A stretch of 39,905 bases of DNA from Flavobacteriales bacterium BRH_c54 (GTDB taxonomy: Bacteria > Bacteroidota > Bacteroidia > Flavobacteriales_E > Vicingaceae). Below the pieces are notes generated by a model. That model made no database searches, was not told the DNA's origin, and saw nothing but the letters and a program-made list of their open reading frames with translations. The stretch spans positions 1 through 39,905 of the forward strand of contig LADZ01000062.1 in NCBI GenBank assembly GCA_000961845.1, in the 5' to 3' direction. The position numbers and the translations under genes are program-made. Numbering within the stretch: position 1 is the stretch's first letter; the number at the start of each line of letters is the position of its first letter. This document shows positions 18,757 to 30,297 of the stretch, piece after piece.

Positions 18757-19725
18757 ATGACAATCTTTGAAAATTTAGTTTATAACGAAAATACTTTTAC
18801 AGAGCTTTTTAAAAACATCATGAAATTCAAGGTGTTTAGAAGAGAATTTCTAAGTTTGATAGATTATGATTTTTCAGTTGAAGATATTGAATTTGAAAAT
18901 TTCTCAACTCAAAAGACTACTGATAATGGGCGACCTGATTTAATAATTTCAACACAGACTATAGAAATTTATATCGAAATTAAAGTTTGGAACACAATAC
19001 TAACCAGTAATCAACCAAGTGGATATCTTAAAGAACTTGAAGGAATACCTAAGAGTAAAAAGATGTTAATATTATTAACTCCTAAGAATTACAAATATTT
19101 AGATATTTATGACAAAAGAAAATCACAAGATAATTCCAACATTAAAACTCAAACGATATTTTGGTCAGAAATTATTTATAGAATTGAACAAGAAGAAATA
19201 TTTGAAGGCAATCCATTACTAAACGAATATCTTGAACTATTAAAAGAATGGTTCGAACCAAAACATGTAGAAATTGATAATAAATTTTTAGAAATTATGT
19301 ATAATATTGATACTCCAAGTTCTCTTGAAAAATTAACAGATTTAATTAATCAAGTAAAAACCGAACTTCAAAAAAGTGGGGTTGAAATTACCTCAAACAA
19401 AACAAACATTCTAAATGAGTATGGGTTTTATTGTGATTCAATCGATTCGTATAGTTTATATATTGGTGAGTGGTTTGATTACTGGAAAGAAACAGGAAAT
19501 CCTTTTTGCATTGCCATTCATACAAATAATGAGCAAATATTAAATCAATTTAATATAGAATGTAAACAACAAGGATTTACAAAACCTGAACTTTTCGAAA
19601 ATACTAATTGGTGGGTATGTAATATAAGTTTGAAAATTAATGAAAGTACAATCGAGATTATTACTGATAAAACAAAAAAAATAATAGATAAATTAAAAAA
19701 CACAACCTTACAACACATGTTATAA
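18757..19725 (+). CDS. PD-(D/E)XK-superfamily nuclease-like protein
   Basis: A 322-residue protein of the PD-(D/E)XK nuclease fold. The core motif is GRPDLIIS (Pro60-Asp61), then IYIEIKV (Glu74, Lys76), with Gln86 and Tyr90 (NQPSGYLKEL) in the helix that follows, as in the PDDEXK_4-type family. The N-terminus NENTFTELFKNIMK also matches that family. Residues ~180-322 are a separate alpha/beta region without a motif I know. Such standalone proteins are usually found among accessory or defence genes; the target is unknown. The gene is alone on its transcript, is more AT-rich to the eye than its neighbours, and lies between inverted repeats, all of which suggest acquisition. Confidence 0.72.
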   Translation: MTIFENLVYNENTFTELFKNIMKFKVFRREFLSLIDYDFSVEDIEFENFSTQKTTDNGRPDLIISTQTIEIYIEIKVWNTILTSNQPSGYLKELEGIPKSKKMLILLTPKNYKYLDIYDKRKSQDNSNIKTQTIFWSEIIYRIEQEEIFEGNPLLNEYLELLKEWFEPKHVEIDNKFLEIMYNIDTPSSLEKLTDLINQVKTELQKSGVEITSNKTNILNEYGFYCDSIDSYSLYIGEWFDYWKETGNPFCIAIHTNNEQILNQFNIECKQQGFTKPELFENTNWWVCNISLKINESTIEIITDKTKKIIDKLKNTTLQHML

Positions 19726-24024: not shown

Positions 24025-25779
24025 ATGAAAAGCGTATCTGGAAAGGCATTTGACTACAAACTTTTTAATCGAGTAATGCGATATGTTGCTCCTTATAAGG
24101 GTATGTTTTACCTTACTGCTTTTTTAAGTATTGTGTTGGCTGTAGTTTCTGTTGCTCGTCCGTTATTAATACAGGTTGCTGTAAATAAAAATATTGAAAC
24201 CAAAGATGAATTAGGCCTATTCCATATTACCATGTGGTTAATTGGTATCTTAATTTTAGAAACCATTTTGCAATATGTGTTTACTTATTACGGCAATTTG
24301 GTTGGTCAGAATATTATTAAAGATATTAGAAATGAAGTTTTTAAACATGTTGTTGATTTTAAATCGAAATATTTCGACCAAACCCCAATAGGCAGATTAG
24401 TTACTCGTACTGTTTCTGATATTGAAACCGTTGCGGAAATGTTCTCTGCGGGAATTTTAGTAATTCTTGGCGATTTACTTAAAATCATCTCTGCGGTTAT
24501 TTGTATGTTCTATATCAATTGGGATTTAGCACTCATTACGCTTATCCCCATCCCTATTTTATTGATTGGAACGAACATGTTTAAACGTGCCATTAAAGAT
24601 GCATTTCAGGAAGTAAGAAACCAAGTTTCTATACTAAACACCTTTGTGCAGGAGCATATTACAGGAATGTCTATTGTGCAAATTTTTAACAGAGAAAAAA
24701 TTGAAAGTGAAATTTTTGCCGACATTAATAAAAAACACCGAAATGCACACATTAAAAGTGTTTGGGCATATTCTATTTTCTTTCCTTTGGTTGAGATTTT
24801 ATCTGCTCTTTCTGTTGCGTTATTGGTGTGGTATGGTTTTAAAGAGGTTTCTTTAGAAGTTGCCGAGCCGGGAGAAATTTTTGCCTTCACTTTTTTTATT
24901 TACATGTTGTACCGCCCTATTCGTCAGTTAGCAGATAGGTTTAATTCTTTGCAAATGGGAATGGTAAGCTCCGAAAGAGTCTTTAAAGTGTTAGATACGG
25001 AAGACGCTATAAGTAACAAAGGAACACAAACCTTTAGCGAGCTAAAAGGCAACATCCGTTTTGAGAATGTGTGGTTTGCCTACAACAATGAAGAATGGGT
25101 ACTGAAAGACATTTCATTTACCATCAACAAAGGACAATCACTGGCGTTGGTTGGAGCAACAGGAGCAGGAAAATCGTCTATTATTAATTTATTGGGCAGG
25201 TATTACGAAATTAACAAAGGCAACATTTACATTGATGATATTAATATTAACGATATAGAACTCAACCACCTCAGAAAATCTATGGCTGTGGTGTTGCAAG
25301 ATGTTTTCCTATTTTCAGATTCTATTTTAAACAACATTACGCTTTACAGTGATGATATTAGCGAGGAGCGAGTAATTGATGCTGCCAAAAAAATTGGAGC
25401 ACACGATTTTATTTCCAGACTTCCCGGTGGTTATCATTACAATGTAAAAGAGCGTGGTGCTTTACTTTCTTCCGGGCAACGACAATTAATTTCGTTTATC
25501 CGGGCGTATGTACACGAGCCGCAAATATTAATTTTAGATGAAGCTACCTCTTCTATAGATAGTGAATCTGAAGCATTGATAAAACATGCTACCGAAGTGC
25601 TTACGCAAAACACCACCTCTATTATTGTAGCTCACCGTTTATCTACCATACAAAATGCCAACAAAATTTTAGTAATAGATAAAGGCACCGTAGTAGAAGA
25701 AGGTACTCACCACGAGCTGTTGCAAAAAGATGGCTACTACAAAAAACTCTACAGCTACCAGTTTGAAGAGGTGGTTTGA
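24025..25779 (+). CDS. ABC exporter, second half-transporter (MdlB/YheH-like)
   Basis: A 584-residue fusion of a six-helix membrane domain (about 20-320) and an ATPase. The ATPase has Walker A GATGAGKSS, Walker B ILILDEATSSID and switch His in VAHRLST, but the signature reads LSSGQRQL instead of LSGGQ. That variant is usual in the YheH/MdlB/LmrD branch, whose members often pair with a second half-transporter. The obvious candidate partner in this window is the exporter at 7596, but it is distant and has its own canonical signature, so homodimer or heterodimer is undecided. Substrate unknown. Confidence 0.88.
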   Translation: MKSVSGKAFDYKLFNRVMRYVAPYKGMFYLTAFLSIVLAVVSVARPLLIQVAVNKNIETKDELGLFHITMWLIGILILETILQYVFTYYGNLVGQNIIKDIRNEVFKHVVDFKSKYFDQTPIGRLVTRTVSDIETVAEMFSAGILVILGDLLKIISAVICMFYINWDLALITLIPIPILLIGTNMFKRAIKDAFQEVRNQVSILNTFVQEHITGMSIVQIFNREKIESEIFADINKKHRNAHIKSVWAYSIFFPLVEILSALSVALLVWYGFKEVSLEVAEPGEIFAFTFFIYMLYRPIRQLADRFNSLQMGMVSSERVFKVLDTEDAISNKGTQTFSELKGNIRFENVWFAYNNEEWVLKDISFTINKGQSLALVGATGAGKSSIINLLGRYYEINKGNIYIDDININDIELNHLRKSMAVVLQDVFLFSDSILNNITLYSDDISEERVIDAAKKIGAHDFISRLPGGYHYNVKERGALLSSGQRQLISFIRAYVHEPQILILDEATSSIDSESEALIKHATEVLTQNTTSIIVAHRLSTIQNANKILVIDKGTVVEEGTHHELLQKDGYYKKLYSYQFEEVV

Positions 25780-25829
25780 TTTGGGATTTTTTTTGTATGT
25801 TTGGAGGGAGTAATTAATACAAAATAGTG

Positions 25830-25837
25830 TATTTTTG
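25830..25837 (+). promoter_or_regulatory. -7 promoter element of the ietAS-like operon
   Basis: TATTTTTG matches TAnnTTTG exactly and ends seven bases before the ATG at 25844. Transcription would therefore start at or within a few bases of the start codon, giving a leaderless or nearly leaderless message. A good -33 TTG at the usual spacing is not evident. Confidence 0.45.
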
Positions 25838-25843
25838 TATGAA

Positions 25844-26827
25844 ATGGCAGCTGCTGATCAAATAAAATCGTTAATTAAATCCTTTGGACAAAGTGATGAT
25901 GCTAGATTTTTTTCTACTGCGTTACAAATTGCTGCTACTGAAGCCCAACAAGGACACACTACTTTTGCTCAAGAATTAAAAAAACTAATTGATGAGGCTA
26001 AAAATGGAAGAAGCTTAAATCAGATTGAGAAAAAAGCAATTCAAATCAATTTACCCAAAAGAGAACTTCAAGAATTAATAGAAGTTTTTCAGCCAAAAAT
26101 TTCATTAAAAGATATGGTGTTAGATAATAGCATCAAATTAAAATTAAATAGTGTCATAAAAGAACAAGAAAAATGGCAACTCTTAAAAGCACATAATTTA
26201 GAACCTAAACGAAAATTATTATTAACGGGTGCACCTGGCACGGGAAAAACGATGACGGCTCAAGCAATTGCTGGTGAGTTAGGTATAGCAGTTTATATTA
26301 TTAGATTGGATGGATTAATGTCTAAATTTTTAGGAGAGTCAATTGCTAAATTGAGATTAATTTTTGATGCGATGAATGACCATAGAGCAGTTTATCTCTT
26401 TGATGAATTCGATTCTATTGGCTCACACCGAAATCAACATCAAGATATTGGAGAAATAAAAAGAGTATTAAATTCATTTTTAATCAATATTGAAAAAGAT
26501 AAAAGTAATAGTATCATTATTGCTGCTACAAATTTGCCAGAATCATTAGACAAAGCATTATTTAGAAGATTTGATGAAATCTTAGAATATCCTTTGCCTG
26601 ATAAAGAACATATTATTGAAATAATTAAGAAGAATACTAAAGCGTTTTCGTTTTCAACTAAAGTCAATTACAAAGAACTGTCTGAAATTGCTAATGGACT
26701 TAACTATTCTGAAATTGTAAGAATTTGTGAAGAAACCATTAAAGAAATGATTTTAAATGGTGCCGATAAATTAGAAATTAAGACTTTAAAATCTCTTTTA
26801 AAATCTCGGAATATTGTAAATGGATAG
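25844..26827 (+). CDS. ietA: AAA+ ATPase, IetA-like
   Basis: A 327-residue single AAA+ ATPase. Residues ~1-95 are a helical N-terminal region (DQIKSLIKSFGQSDDARFFSTAL). The ATPase core has Walker A GAPGTGKT (129-136), Walker B YLFDEFD (Asp187-Glu188), sensor-1 Asn in AATNLPES and the arginine pair in LFRRFDE, like FtsH/katanin-type remodelers. It overlaps the next gene by eight bases (ATGGATAG), so the two are translationally coupled. A small AAA+ ATPase followed by a large subtilisin-like protease is the composition of IetAS, known from Agrobacterium plasmid exclusion and reported as antiphage. The open frame has a TTG nine bases upstream, but the ATG fits better. Confidence 0.8.
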   Translation: MAAADQIKSLIKSFGQSDDARFFSTALQIAATEAQQGHTTFAQELKKLIDEAKNGRSLNQIEKKAIQINLPKRELQELIEVFQPKISLKDMVLDNSIKLKLNSVIKEQEKWQLLKAHNLEPKRKLLLTGAPGTGKTMTAQAIAGELGIAVYIIRLDGLMSKFLGESIAKLRLIFDAMNDHRAVYLFDEFDSIGSHRNQHQDIGEIKRVLNSFLINIEKDKSNSIIIAATNLPESLDKALFRRFDEILEYPLPDKEHIIEIIKKNTKAFSFSTKVNYKELSEIANGLNYSEIVRICEETIKEMILNGADKLEIKTLKSLLKSRNIVNG

Positions 26828-29336
26828 TAAGAAGCATTTAAAAATTGAAGGTTATTCTACTTCTAACTCATACAAATCTCCACAAAGTGGTGGTGGTGAT
26901 GATAAATTTATAAAACAAGAAAGAGATAGAGCAATTCATGGTAATTTTTTACTTCAAAAAATAAATGCGATTAAGGATGAATTTGAAATTGAAGAAATTG
27001 ATAATTCTTCCTTAATTAAGGATGATGCGATTTATTTAGAGTTTGAATCAGAATGGGGTTATCCATTAATGTTTGATTCTTTTGATAAAAGTGGTTTTCA
27101 AATTTTAAATATTAAAGAAGAAGAAAGAAAGGTCAATGATAATATTGAATTTAAGTATTCCTTAGTTGTTGTTGTTAGAGAAGGTGATATTTCAAAGTTC
27201 ATTAAAAAAATCGAAGATTATCTCTCTGGAAACTTTGTCAAAACGGATAGACTTACGAAAGAAAAAATAGATACTGGAAATCCGTTAAATCAAAAATTAA
27301 TAGGGAATATTAATGATATCAAAAGAGCTACTTTAAAAGCTTTTTGGGTTGATGGTCAGTTCTATGATTTTCCAAATGAACATGAGAATGTGTGGTGGGA
27401 AGTTTGGTTTAGAAAAAACGATAATTATAAAGATAAATTAGTTGATGTCCAAAATAACCTTGAACTTATCAACTGTCAATTGGGTCAATCGGAAATTATA
27501 TTGGCTGACCATGTTGTAAAACTAGTAAAAGGAACAGCAAATCAACTTTCAAAATCATTACTTTTATTAGACAATCTTGCAGAACTTAGAAAGCCTCAAG
27601 AAATAGCTAATTTTATTTTACATAAAGATGTTTCTATTGAATCTAAAAATGAGTATTTGGCTGATCTACAAAGTCGAATAGAATCAAAATTTGATGAAAA
27701 TAGTGTGTTGATTTGTTTATTGGATACTGGCGTTAATAATCAACACCCTTTATTAAAACCATTCTTGCTCGATTCTCATTTATATGCTTATAATTATGCT
27801 TGGGGAACAAATGACAGTAATTCAAATGGAGGACACGGTACTGGAGTTGCTGGATTAGCACTGTACGGGGATTTGACTGATTCTTTAAGTTCAATTGAAA
27901 AAATTCAAATATACCATGGCTTAGAGTCTTTTAAAATATTTAATAATATTCAAGAAGATGAAAAATTTGATGCTCCAAAGTTTGAAGATGCAATAAGTAC
28001 TCCAATGATTTATAATCCAAATAATTTAAGGGTTTATTGTTTAACAATTTTAAGAAATAATGTATTTAAAGGAAGACCATCAGTAGGTTCTGCTACAATA
28101 GACAAAATTTGTTTTGGAAAAATATCAGACCAACAAATCTTTATAGTAAGTGGAGGTAATGTAAAAATCAATAAACACGATGATTATCCAACTTTAAACG
28201 AATTACAATGTATTAGTGATCCTGCTCAAGCTTATAATGCACTAACAGTTGGGACATTTACTAGAAAAGATAAAATTGATATTACTACAGGCTATAAATC
28301 ATTAGCAGAGTATGGCGCAATGGCTCCAAGTAATTCAACATCATTGTTATTTGATAAAAATTGGGCAAACAAACCTGATGTTGTATTTGAGGGAGGTAAT
28401 TTAGCTTACAATGATATAGAAGCACGAGGACATGAAAATTTAGATGTATTATCGCTTCATAAAGATTTTCGAAATAACATTTTCACTTATTTTGGAGACA
28501 CGAGTGGTGCTGCAGGATTAGCCTCTAAAATGGCTGCTGAATTAAGAACACTTTATCCCAAATTTTGGCCTGAAACTATAAGAGGTTTGATGATTCATTC
28601 TGCTGAATGGACAACAAAGATGCTAGGAGGTAGAGAAATCAACAAACTTAAAGAGCAAGAAAAAACAACTTTACTTCGAACAGTTGGATATGGCGTTCCA
28701 AATATTTCAAAAGCAAAATATTGTGCAAATAATAGTTTGACATTGATTGCTGAAAAAGAAATTCAACCATATAAATTAGAAAAATCAAAAGGTCAATATA
28801 ACCAATATCATTTATTTGAATTGCCATGGCCAAAAGAAGCTTTGGAGCAATTGGAAGATAAGAATGCAAAACTTATTGTTACGTTATCATATTACATTGA
28901 ACCAAATCCGGGTACAAGAAGATTAGCAACCCATTATGCATACCATTCGCACCAATTAGATTTTGAAATTATTAATAGACTTGAAACATTGCCTGAATTC
29001 AAAGTTCGAATTTCTAAACCTAAAGATGAAACTAAAGAAAATAGGACTAAAAGAACTGGTGTAAAATGGGCTATTGGAAAAGATTCAAATCTGAAAGGTT
29101 CAATAAGAAAAGATTTTATAACTGGAACTGGTAGAGAATTATCTGAGAGAAATGTTTTAGCAATAATACCTAAAAATGGATGGTATAAAAATCTAAAGAG
29201 ACAAAATAAATTTAATGAAAAAGTTCGTTATAGTTTAATTGTGAGCATTGAAACTGAGGAAACAGAAGTTGATTTATATACACCTGTATTCAATGTTTTA
29301 AACCCATTAAATCCATTAAATTCATTAACAGCTTAA
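26820..29336 (+). CDS. ietS: Subtilisin-like S8 serine protease, IetS-like
   Basis: An 838-residue protein without a signal peptide, so cytoplasmic, unlike most subtilisins. Residues ~1-290 are a non-catalytic region that includes RDRAIHGNFLLQKI, a segment I associate with this S8 group. The S8 domain has an intact triad: Asp302 (LLDTGVN), His339 (GGHGTGVAG) and Ser562 (GDTSGAAGLA), with Asn447 (VSGGN) for the oxyanion hole. About 200 residues follow the catalytic domain, ending in a low-complexity NPLNPLNSL tail. The model is that the ATPase controls or feeds this protease upon plasmid or phage entry. Active enzyme expected from the residues seen. Confidence 0.82.
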   Translation: MDSKKHLKIEGYSTSNSYKSPQSGGGDDKFIKQERDRAIHGNFLLQKINAIKDEFEIEEIDNSSLIKDDAIYLEFESEWGYPLMFDSFDKSGFQILNIKEEERKVNDNIEFKYSLVVVVREGDISKFIKKIEDYLSGNFVKTDRLTKEKIDTGNPLNQKLIGNINDIKRATLKAFWVDGQFYDFPNEHENVWWEVWFRKNDNYKDKLVDVQNNLELINCQLGQSEIILADHVVKLVKGTANQLSKSLLLLDNLAELRKPQEIANFILHKDVSIESKNEYLADLQSRIESKFDENSVLICLLDTGVNNQHPLLKPFLLDSHLYAYNYAWGTNDSNSNGGHGTGVAGLALYGDLTDSLSSIEKIQIYHGLESFKIFNNIQEDEKFDAPKFEDAISTPMIYNPNNLRVYCLTILRNNVFKGRPSVGSATIDKICFGKISDQQIFIVSGGNVKINKHDDYPTLNELQCISDPAQAYNALTVGTFTRKDKIDITTGYKSLAEYGAMAPSNSTSLLFDKNWANKPDVVFEGGNLAYNDIEARGHENLDVLSLHKDFRNNIFTYFGDTSGAAGLASKMAAELRTLYPKFWPETIRGLMIHSAEWTTKMLGGREINKLKEQEKTTLLRTVGYGVPNISKAKYCANNSLTLIAEKEIQPYKLEKSKGQYNQYHLFELPWPKEALEQLEDKNAKLIVTLSYYIEPNPGTRRLATHYAYHSHQLDFEIINRLETLPEFKVRISKPKDETKENRTKRTGVKWAIGKDSNLKGSIRKDFITGTGRELSERNVLAIIPKNGWYKNLKRQNKFNEKVRYSLIVSIETEETEVDLYTPVFNVLNPLNPLNSLTA

Positions 29337-29835
29337 AAGAAGTATAGGGCTTTCTTGCTTTGCTTCAGACTCATATCTTTAAAAATTATTAATTTTAATT
29401 GTTAAAACTGTCCCCCCGCTCCCGCCAGAGTCTTGCTGGTGGTTTATATATAAACTATAAATGAATAAAAGAAAAGCAAACGAAGGTTATAGTAACAGCA
29501 CATTACTGAAAGGAATTGGAATAGCTATACTGCCTTTTTTTCTTAAATAATTTAGTTTATTTTAATGAAAGCGACCAATCTCTTCTGAATCTAAAAAACG
29601 CTAAATTGTAAAATCTGTAACTCGTTCCATAATTTACATTACTTTAAAACGAGATTCCTGCCTTCGCAGGAATGACGGTAAGGGTAAGGGTAAAGGAATG
29701 ACGCACAGAATATAGTTCATCACTTAATAAATCCAATTGCATCAAACAATCTTCAATGCCATTCCTGAAATTTTTGAGGCACGAAAAAATTATCAGGAAT
29801 CTTAACAACTCTTAACAACTTTATAATAGAATGGC
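29337..29835. other. Repeat-rich gap between the ietAS-like operon and perR
   Basis: This stretch holds several non-coding structures. CCGCCAG/CTGGTGG forms a hairpin near 29423. A 29-codon frame (29461-29550, MNKRKANEGYSNSTLLKGIG) has no recognisable relative and may be chance. ATTCCTGC/GCAGGAAT (29654-29673) is a perfect 8-bp stem with a CTTC loop; GGAATGACG follows it and recurs at 29695 after three GGTAAG-like units. ATTCCTGA/TCAGGAAT (29761-29800) frames a second hairpin with AATTTTT/AAAAATT inside. CTTAACAACT is tandemly doubled at 29801-29820. Confidence 0.55.
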
Positions 29836-29866
29836 TTGAAATTTCATCAAAATCAATCTAAATTTG
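29836..29866 (+). promoter_or_regulatory. Promoter of perR
   Basis: TTG at 29836-29838, a 20-base spacer and TAAATTTG at 29859-29866 match the Bacteroidota promoter consensus exactly. The leader is about 25 bases. The -7 box overlaps the PerR-type operator. Confidence 0.75.
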
Positions 29867-29879
29867 TAATCATTACAAA
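29863..29879. promoter_or_regulatory. PerR-box-like operator
   Basis: TTTGTAAT-C-ATTACAAA is a perfect 17-bp palindrome with a one-base centre, the same 7-1-7 geometry as the PerR box (TTATAATNATTATAA). It starts inside the -7 box and covers the expected transcription start, so a bound regulator would block the perR promoter. Confidence 0.75.
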
Positions 29880-29895
29880 AATATATTTATAGCAA

Positions 29896-30297
29896 ATGAA
29901 TATTGCTCATCACCTTAGCGAACACGATATTAAACCTTCTTACCAAAGGATAAAAATTTATGAGTACCTATACAAGGAAATGAATCATCCTACGGTAGAT
30001 ACCATTTATAAAAAGTTGGTGGGAGAAATTCCTACTTTATCGAAAACAACAGTTTATAATACCTTAAAATTGTTTATTGATAAAGGTATTACATCAACAG
30101 TAACCATTGAAGATAATGAAGTAAGGTATGATGCTATTGTTGATGCTCATGGACATTTTAAATGTATCTCATGCGGAGCAATATATGACATTAAGTATGA
30201 TTTTAAAGATGTAGCCATGAACGAATTAAAAGGTTTTGAAGTAAAAGAAACCCAAGTTCATGTAAAAGGAAAATGTAATCAATGTTTAACCAAATAA
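29896..30297 (+). CDS. perR: Peroxide-sensing Fur-family repressor PerR
   Basis: A 133-residue winged-helix regulator of the Fur family. The helix-turn-helix is TLSKTTVYNTLKLFIDKG (47-64). All five residues that hold the regulatory Fe/Mn in PerR are in place by alignment with the Bacillus protein: His31, Asp79, His85, His87 and Asp98. The Asp at the last site is typical of PerR; Fur has Glu. Two CxxC pairs (Cys90/93 and Cys127/130) hold the structural zinc. In PerR, peroxide oxidises the metal-binding histidines and releases DNA. The palindrome on its own promoter suggests autoregulation, and the peroxiredoxin gene 11 bases downstream would be co-controlled. Confidence 0.88.
   Translation: MNIAHHLSEHDIKPSYQRIKIYEYLYKEMNHPTVDTIYKKLVGEIPTLSKTTVYNTLKLFIDKGITSTVTIEDNEVRYDAIVDAHGHFKCISCGAIYDIKYDFKDVAMNELKGFEVKETQVHVKGKCNQCLTK

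Follow-up and report, generated by a model that had tools for sequence, protein, structure and literature searches.

A divergent IetAS-family ATPase and protease pair in a variable chromosomal slot of Flavobacteriales bacterium BRH_c54

What does an ATPase gene coupled to the gene of a cytoplasmic subtilase do between an ABC exporter gene and a perR-like gene of Flavobacteriales bacterium BRH_c54, and how did it come to be there? The question was addressed on a stretch of 39,905 nucleotides of this genome (contig LADZ01000062.1 of assembly GCA_000961845.1, positions 1 to 39,905 of the forward strand; hereafter the window), in which the pair is laid out as follows:

25844..26827, + strand: ietA, AAA+ ATPase, 327 residues (PADLOC IetA model PDLC04232, E 2.4e-74, residues 1-320 of 327 against profile positions 1-314 of 330; Pfam AAA, E 2.2e-29)
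26820..29336, + strand: ietS, S8 (subtilase) protease without signal peptide, 838 residues, ATG start (PADLOC IetS model PDLC02198, E 2.7e-40, residues 271-825 against profile positions 230-777 of 795; Pfam Peptidase_S8, E 4.4e-50)

The answer we favour, with a confidence slightly better than even, is that this is a divergent IetAS pair of a Bacteroidota type, probably acquired horizontally and sitting in a chromosomal slot of changing content, in which IetA would restrain IetS until a phage replication event takes place.

The two genes overlap by 8 nucleotides, the ATG of ietS being at 26820 and the stop codon of ietA (TAG) at 26825-26827. A longer ietA frame opens with TTG (25835-26827, + strand, 330 residues); translation from the ATG at 25844, a start common among the relatives, gives the 327-residue protein, which begins MAAADQIKSLIKSF. 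An earlier sequence-only reading had described a 327-residue ATPase and an 838-residue protease overlapping by eight bases, as the open reading frame coordinates bear out, and had assigned the two to IetAS. In profile searches the IetA and IetS models indeed come out best, the order of the pair is conserved, and the family assignment stands; its narrow form does not, the scores against the best NCBIfam families, the antiphage IteA and IteS, falling short of the equivalog cut-offs. Because the IetA/IteA and IetS/IteS models rank first and the scores lie far below these cut-offs, the pair is, judged by its profile matches, an IetAS-family pair divergent from the narrow set named by NCBI. The first 270 residues of IetS fall outside its best stretch in the PADLOC profile. 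Since two long open frames match curated families and their order is kept across phyla, the gene pair is far beyond chance.

The pair adds one more member to the already known IetAS kind. Like IetA and IetS of pTiC58 and the families that PADLOC and NCBI (as IteA/IteS) describe, it consists of an AAA+ ATPase followed by a signal-less S8 protease, in the same order and with the same coupling; it differs by its scores below the NCBI equivalog cut-offs and by its place in a chromosomal slot rather than on a Ti plasmid, and the likeness is drawn from profiles, not from the pTiC58 sequences. SgiAT of Salmonella genomic island 1 (SGI1) is the same pair, with the protease as toxin and the ATPase as antitoxin (PMC5006074), and is borne on a mobilisable island, while mycoplasma TA132/3 is a chromosomal AAA-ATPase/subtilisin-like protease pair with the antitoxin gene upstream, its protease measuring 757 and its ATPase 353 residues (PMC8562856); both are likened to the window pair by composition, not by sequence. 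The closest named relatives of the window pair (64-65% identity, among the best 80 of at least 579 candidates) are Bacteroidota.

Relatives were collected in a scan of named genomes, which gave these at least 579 confirmed candidates, of which the best 80 were taken, and from viral contigs (24 more), which makes 104 loci in all. In 98 of them IetS has an IetA homologue ahead of it in the same orientation, and in the remaining six the IetS frame starts within 336 bases of a contig end. Counted from the first ATG of the IetS frame, which in some loci is certainly a wrong start, the two genes overlap in 18 of the 98 loci and are separated by 0-30 nucleotides in 66, by 31-150 in seven and by more than 150 in seven. 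The pairwise distances of IetA and IetS are correlated (r = 0.895 over 90 pairs, against a maximum of 0.097 in 999 permutations). The genes ietA and ietS travel together. For the alignments used below, IetS rows shorter than 700 residues were dropped (105 to 94, window included), as were IetA rows shorter than 290 residues (99 to 97).

Two of the loci are noted for their own sake. At L117:4954-5986, from a Rhodobacteraceae bin and one of the 98 (L labels denote extracted loci, G labels genomes), the ATPase is split over two frames with the protease frame open, which may be a sequencing error or a broken antitoxin. At L110:10259-13241, from Zhongshania marina, a second IetA-like ATPase (E 1.5e-34) stands beside the IetAS pair and is followed by a 625-residue protein of unknown kind.

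The freshest part of the findings is the site itself. Its parts in the window are:

25780..29895, no strand: exporter-perR gap, replacement slot in the genus (DNA unshared with sister species at about 25807-29601)
24025..25779, + strand: left border, ABC exporter (PF00664/PF00005; match at E <= 1e-60 in 46/46 family genomes)
29896..30297, + strand: right border, FUR-family regulator, perR-like (PF01475)
29654..29673, no strand: perfect palindrome ATTCCTGCCTTCGCAGGAAT on the perR side of the slot (3 exact places in its own genome)

The sequence-only reading had placed the pair between an ABC exporter and perR, with which the Pfam matches agree; beyond the FUR-family gene lie a peroxiredoxin gene and then a Fe/Mn superoxide dismutase (sod) gene. 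The G+C content is 29.5% in the pair, 31.9% in the window, 35.5% in the exporter and 34.8% in the stretch from perR to sod. Six genomes of the genus were compared (loci L048, L049, L050, L051 and L053 being set against the window, whose genome is G000), two of which are broken at the slot. In the other four, exporter and perR are near each other on one contig, and the content of the gap differs in each: IetAS in G000, nothing in G010 (with 142 bp from the exporter match to the perR match), a KAP NTPase of 616 residues (Pfam E 2.7e-39; PADLOC PifA E 1.1e-57) with a 238-residue unknown protein in G012, and a 193-residue unknown protein in G008. The contigs of G009 and G011 end before perR and carry other genes downstream of the exporter. 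In G009 these are the start of RhuM (PDC-S05) and a DUF4011/helicase-type protein (PDC-S37, E 3.8e-29), and in G011 a T5orf172/MUG113 protein, a 168-residue unknown protein and, some 3 kb further along, an AAA_14/DUF4143 protein (PDC-S01, E 1.7e-147) that may already lie beyond the slot; the PDC models are candidate defence families in PADLOC. G011 also has a RhuM-like fragment (L053:5199-5483) where G009 has the RhuM start, a by-eye hint of former RhuM occupancy.

The DNA common to G000 and to G012 or G008 ends at about 25806-25808, 27-29 bases past the exporter stop, and resumes at about 29602-29617, some 280-294 bases before perR. The exporter proteins of these genomes are 98-99% identical to that of G000 despite the divergent slot DNA, and further non-coding pieces are common to G008 and G012. 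As far as few genomes can tell, the gap between exporter and perR is a small replacement slot with contents that vary from one species to the next. At an E-value threshold of 0.01, neither Pfam nor PADLOC models match the proteins of 238 residues (L048:4523-5236), 193 residues (L049:3540-4118, - strand) and 168 residues (L053:4503-5006), which are candidates for new defence genes; several of the other occupants match PADLOC models. No integrase was found among nine slot-region proteins scanned in the other species, shorter frames lying outside the scan. The palindrome, which we take to be REP-like (repetitive extragenic palindrome), is present in one copy in each slot that is filled and closed on both sides (G000, G008 and G012). 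No exact match occurs in the genome of G010 (87% complete), which has the empty slot; in G009 and G011 the palindrome is found only away from the slot. The palindrome may simply be inherited, the three filled species being close kin.

The distribution of the pair in the family bears on how it came to the slot. IetS is found in 3/46 family genomes (G000, G028 and G007), the same three being among the 32 genomes of 90% or higher completeness and no more than 5% contamination. A fourth candidate, an S8 match in G012 (27% identity over the 205 residues of query positions 292-496, E 3.2e-4), was counted as unrelated. Across the class, 13/395 genomes have an IetS match at E <= 1e-10, and in the genus one genome of six carries the pair. 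That the pair is not core at this site is shown by this last count and by the locus comparison, in which G010 has the exporter-perR gap without the pair. In a quick tree of IetS (LG+G4, with support from the Shimodaira-Hasegawa-like approximate likelihood ratio test only, and with warnings from the program about an odd composition of the window row and about long branches in other places), the window protein groups with those of Flavobacterium geliluteum and Lacihabitans (support 100), that of G028 with Zobellia and a Dojkabacteria bin (support 99), and that of G007 with an Acidobacteria bin (support 100). Because the three copies of the family sit in three different clades, IetS has probably been gained horizontally more than once, and the window pair was probably acquired in this way. 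G028 and G007 are each about 4% contaminated; the G007 pair shares its contig with the exporter homologue of that genome. The Dojkabacteria bin (L075), the IetS of which groups with Bacteroidota copies, is likely a binning error.

This distribution makes it very improbable that the pair serves housekeeping proteolysis in the cytoplasm, for instance turnover under oxidative stress, an explanation already disfavoured. Its place upstream of a peroxide-stress cluster (perR, the peroxiredoxin gene and sod) would suit such a role. The presence of IetS in so few family genomes (3 of 46, or 3 of the 32 better ones), the separate clades of the three copies and the change of slot content between close relatives all speak against it.

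Another explanation is that IetAS is chiefly an addiction module stabilising mobile elements, here as a chromosomal left-over. Relatives stabilise pTiC58 and SGI1, as the titles of the respective studies state, and IetS relatives occur on 488 of 72,556 plasmid records; in 371 of these the match spans 80% or more of the query, and 340 of the 488 are typed as conjugative. Phage records gave relatives in 6/50,697 cases, one alone over at least 80% of the query. In the window, no integrase, relaxase or replication protein was found among the nine flanking proteins scanned, and several of the slot occupants match defence rather than addiction models in PADLOC, three being without a match. Addiction thus weighed on both sides seems to us improbable for the window copy.

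The possible workings of the pair were approached from the parts of the two proteins. Those of IetA are:

25844..25993, + strand: IetA residues 1-50, conserved segment ahead of the AAA module, candidate docking part (entropy)
26228..26251, + strand: Walker A GAPGTGKT, residues 129-136 (G129, G132, G134 and K135 in 97/97 rows)
26321..26341, + strand: pore-loop-1-like SKFLGES, residues 160-166 (residue 162 aromatic, Y in 49 and F in 48 rows; G164 in 97/97)
26393..26413, + strand: Walker B YLFDEFD, residues 184-190 (D187 and E188 in 97/97 rows)
26564..26569, + strand: candidate arginine fingers R241-R242 (both in 97/97 rows)

The mean entropy per block of ten residues is 0.99-1.67 over residues 1-50, compared to about 2.8 in the linker of residues 51-70. 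We take SKFLGES to be pore loop 1, and R241-R242 are presumably arginine fingers; an aromatic residue in the pore loop is typical of threading unfoldases. By sequence, the nearest solved AAA modules are those of p97/CDC48 (among the best 60 of 270 matches). Because the key residues of Walker A and B, the aromatic pore-loop residue and the two arginines are kept in all 97 rows, IetA looks like a working threading-type ATPase rather than a degenerate antitoxin. The same conservation, shared with threading unfoldases, would suit the main rival to our reading, a two-part AAA+ protease in which IetA would pick out a phage replication protein, unfold it and pass it on to IetS for destruction, so that the cell survives. 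We regard such a direct attack as possible, if on the unlikely side. For ietA, a metagenome study describes signals of positive selection and a domain of FtsH-extracellular type (PMC10924106); no such domain was found for the window IetA among the best 25 of its 37 Pfam matches.

For IetS, the parts are:

27699..28694, + strand: catalytic S8 domain, residues 294-625 (PF00082, E 4.4e-50; subtilisins at Z about 24-25)
27723..27725, + strand: catalytic Asp302, in LLDTGV (94/94 rows)
27834..27836, + strand: catalytic His339, in GGHGT (94/94 rows)
28158..28160, + strand: Asn447, presumed oxyanion-hole residue (94/94 rows)
28503..28505, + strand: catalytic Ser562, in GDTSGA (94/94 rows)
27027..27284, + strand: first beta-alpha-beta-beta-alpha-beta (putatively ferredoxin-like) module, residues 70-155 (secondary structure of the model)
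27390..27590, + strand: putative second beta-alpha-beta-beta-alpha-beta module, residues 191-257, ahead of the protease domain (secondary structure of the model)
28695..29294, + strand: conserved, strand-rich C-terminal part, residues 626-825 (alignment with the corresponding region of KP-43-type subtilases)

The Asp302/His339/Ser562 triad of the sequence-only reading is thus present and invariant, and the absence of a signal peptide, also claimed there, agrees with a top 19-residue hydropathy of 0.03 in the first 60 residues; over the whole protein the top value is 0.83. Judged by hydropathy, with no dedicated predictor run, neither a signal peptide nor a transmembrane segment is apparent in IetS. 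A structure model was made from an 82-row alignment (mean predicted local distance difference test score, pLDDT, 89.0; predicted template modelling score, pTM, 0.83). KP-43 is a secreted alkaline protease in which the domain after the catalytic one is a beta-barrel. In a comparison of the model by VIA-align, KP-43 (1wmd) is the best match (Z 26.6, root-mean-square deviation 2.8, 375 residues aligned, model residues 295-810 against chain residues 23-434, 20% identity), with SubHal (5fax), similar to KP-43, next (Z 26.4); most of the further matches are subtilisins, over the catalytic domain. Foldseek is led by pro-Tk-SP, Vpr, Kex2, furin and PCSK9 among others, with low query TM-scores (template modelling scores; 0.25-0.33 for the leading rows), and its best 50 rows lack KP-43. 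IetS resembles the KP-43-type subtilases in its catalytic domain and C-terminal part, and differs from them by the absence of a signal peptide, by about 290 extra N-terminal residues and by its ATPase partner.

The sequence-only reading had offered both the C-terminal stretch of about 200 residues and the region ahead of the protease domain as possible sensor or target-recognition parts. Mean entropy is 1.78 in the C-terminal part, 1.89 in the S8 part and 2.40 over residues 1-290. Because the C-terminal part has the lowest mean entropy of the three and aligns with KP-43, it is unlikely to be a variable sensor; on the model, it is most simply the domain that trails the catalytic domain in KP-43-type subtilases. 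The more variable N-terminal part would then be the likeliest regulatory or recognition region. Its first module comprises, in the model, strands 70-77, 93-105, 108-120, 138-142 and 149-155 with helices 85-90 and 121-136, and its second, strands 191-198, 220-227, 231-238 and 253-257 with helices 203-216 and 240-249. The I9 propeptide of subtilisins has the same order of elements as residues 191-257, although Pfam I9 (Inhibitor_I9) has no match in the IetS profile scan; matches to this family occur in just 2/46 family genomes. An internal duplication as the origin of the two modules was considered and found no support, the profile comparison giving E 0.5 and ten controls within IetS E 0.1-0.73. 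Because of the missing I9 match, and because no sequence likeness between the two modules is detectable, a propeptide-like latch formed by these modules is an idea rather than a result. A fold search against viral structures returned S8 proteases and, weakly, RNA-recognition-motif proteins (E 8.8e-4 and 1.7e-3), which for the modelled fold would mean no more than ferredoxin-like; a role in nucleic-acid binding is not claimed.

Put together, these parts suggest a course of events in which IetA, a p97-like ring ATPase, would bind IetS, possibly by way of its conserved N-terminal segment, and bound in this way would keep this cytoplasmic protease from doing harm. The presumed trigger is the appearance of phage DNA replication proteins, or a disturbance of the complex by them, upon which IetA would release or open IetS; the freed protease would then cut essential proteins of the host and possibly of the phage, and the infected cell would stop before phage release (abortive infection). 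Restraint by IetA with release on infection appears the most likely reading because of the toxin and antitoxin experiments on relatives, the listing of replication components as activators and the intact active sites, taken together. In E. coli, induction of SgiT, the SGI1 protease, lowers transformation 100- to 1000-fold, an effect abolished by the ATPase SgiA (PMC5006074), and mycoplasma TA132/3 is likewise toxic in E. coli and neutralised by its ATPase, loss of the ATPase alone being cited as lethal (PMC8562856). As for the trigger, ietAS is listed, with reference to other work, among the systems activated by phage core replication components (PMC10732053), and a review table puts it in a group headed by phage proteins, polymerase and helicase among them (PMC10286901). 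The antiphage activity of the window copy would follow from its family and its site. A defence setting is suggested by the PADLOC matches of several slot occupants and by the neighbours of the pair in G259, described below.

The listing of replication components also speaks for direct attack on a replication protein, as a target could look like a trigger. With an IetA that is only a feeder, IetS alone should be harmless, and this is at odds with relatives acting as toxin and antitoxin without phage. Several points weigh against restraint and release in turn. The SgiAT operon gives no post-segregational killing from its own promoter (PMC5006074), and the toxin-antitoxin picture is therefore not simple. 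The main text of PMC8562856 uses neither "catalytic" nor "triad", which leaves the role of the protease active site in toxicity unsupported there. The intact threading-type pore loop of IetA would fit active unfolding, beyond passive inhibition. In addition, the NCBIfam equivalog cut-offs are missed by a wide range (193.6 bits against 510 for IteA, 69 against 900 for IteS), and the slot need not be purely one of defence, three of its proteins having neither a PADLOC nor a Pfam match.

A bolder form of restraint and release can be put forward, in which IetS would be a cytoplasmic zymogen. Its two ferredoxin-like modules would form a built-in latch, comparable to a propeptide, over the KP-43-type protease. 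IetA, as a p97-like unfoldase, would turn this latch on meeting a phage replication protein and act as guard and switch at once. The exporter-perR gap would, in the same proposal, be a slot that swaps small defence cassettes, apparently without a recombinase. We hold this combination to be unlikely as a whole and offer it as a conjecture.

The mechanism of ietAS was still awaiting description according to a 2023 paper (PMC9958689), and none is announced in the titles or abstract openings among the literature matches listed. The present analysis supplies parts that can be tested, namely the unfoldase-type pore loop, the invariant triad, the conserved N-terminus of IetA and the structural C-terminal part of IetS. 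At the slot, sister species can be compared that have almost the same flanking DNA and differ by a single cassette, which is useful for finding further small defence genes. New with respect to the sequence-only reading are the slot and its variable occupancy, the assignment given to the C-terminal part, and the threading-type pore loop kept in 97/97 IetA rows.

Some minor observations complete the description. Scans for promoters and terminators in the window were barely above shuffled sequences (30 vs 24.6, standard deviation 4.4, and 2 vs 1.4, standard deviation 1.4, respectively), and the short repeats near the pair, both direct and inverted, seem by eye to be due to chance. The window also holds a 322-residue open reading frame at 18757-19725 with no Pfam match at E 1e-5. 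The surroundings of the pair were viewed at three other loci, chosen rather than drawn from a census. In G007 a transposase-domain gene lies near the pair, in G028 two SoFic-like Fic genes are within 6 kb of it, and in G259 it has TmtA-like genes on one flank and type I methylase, specificity and KwaB genes on the opposite one.

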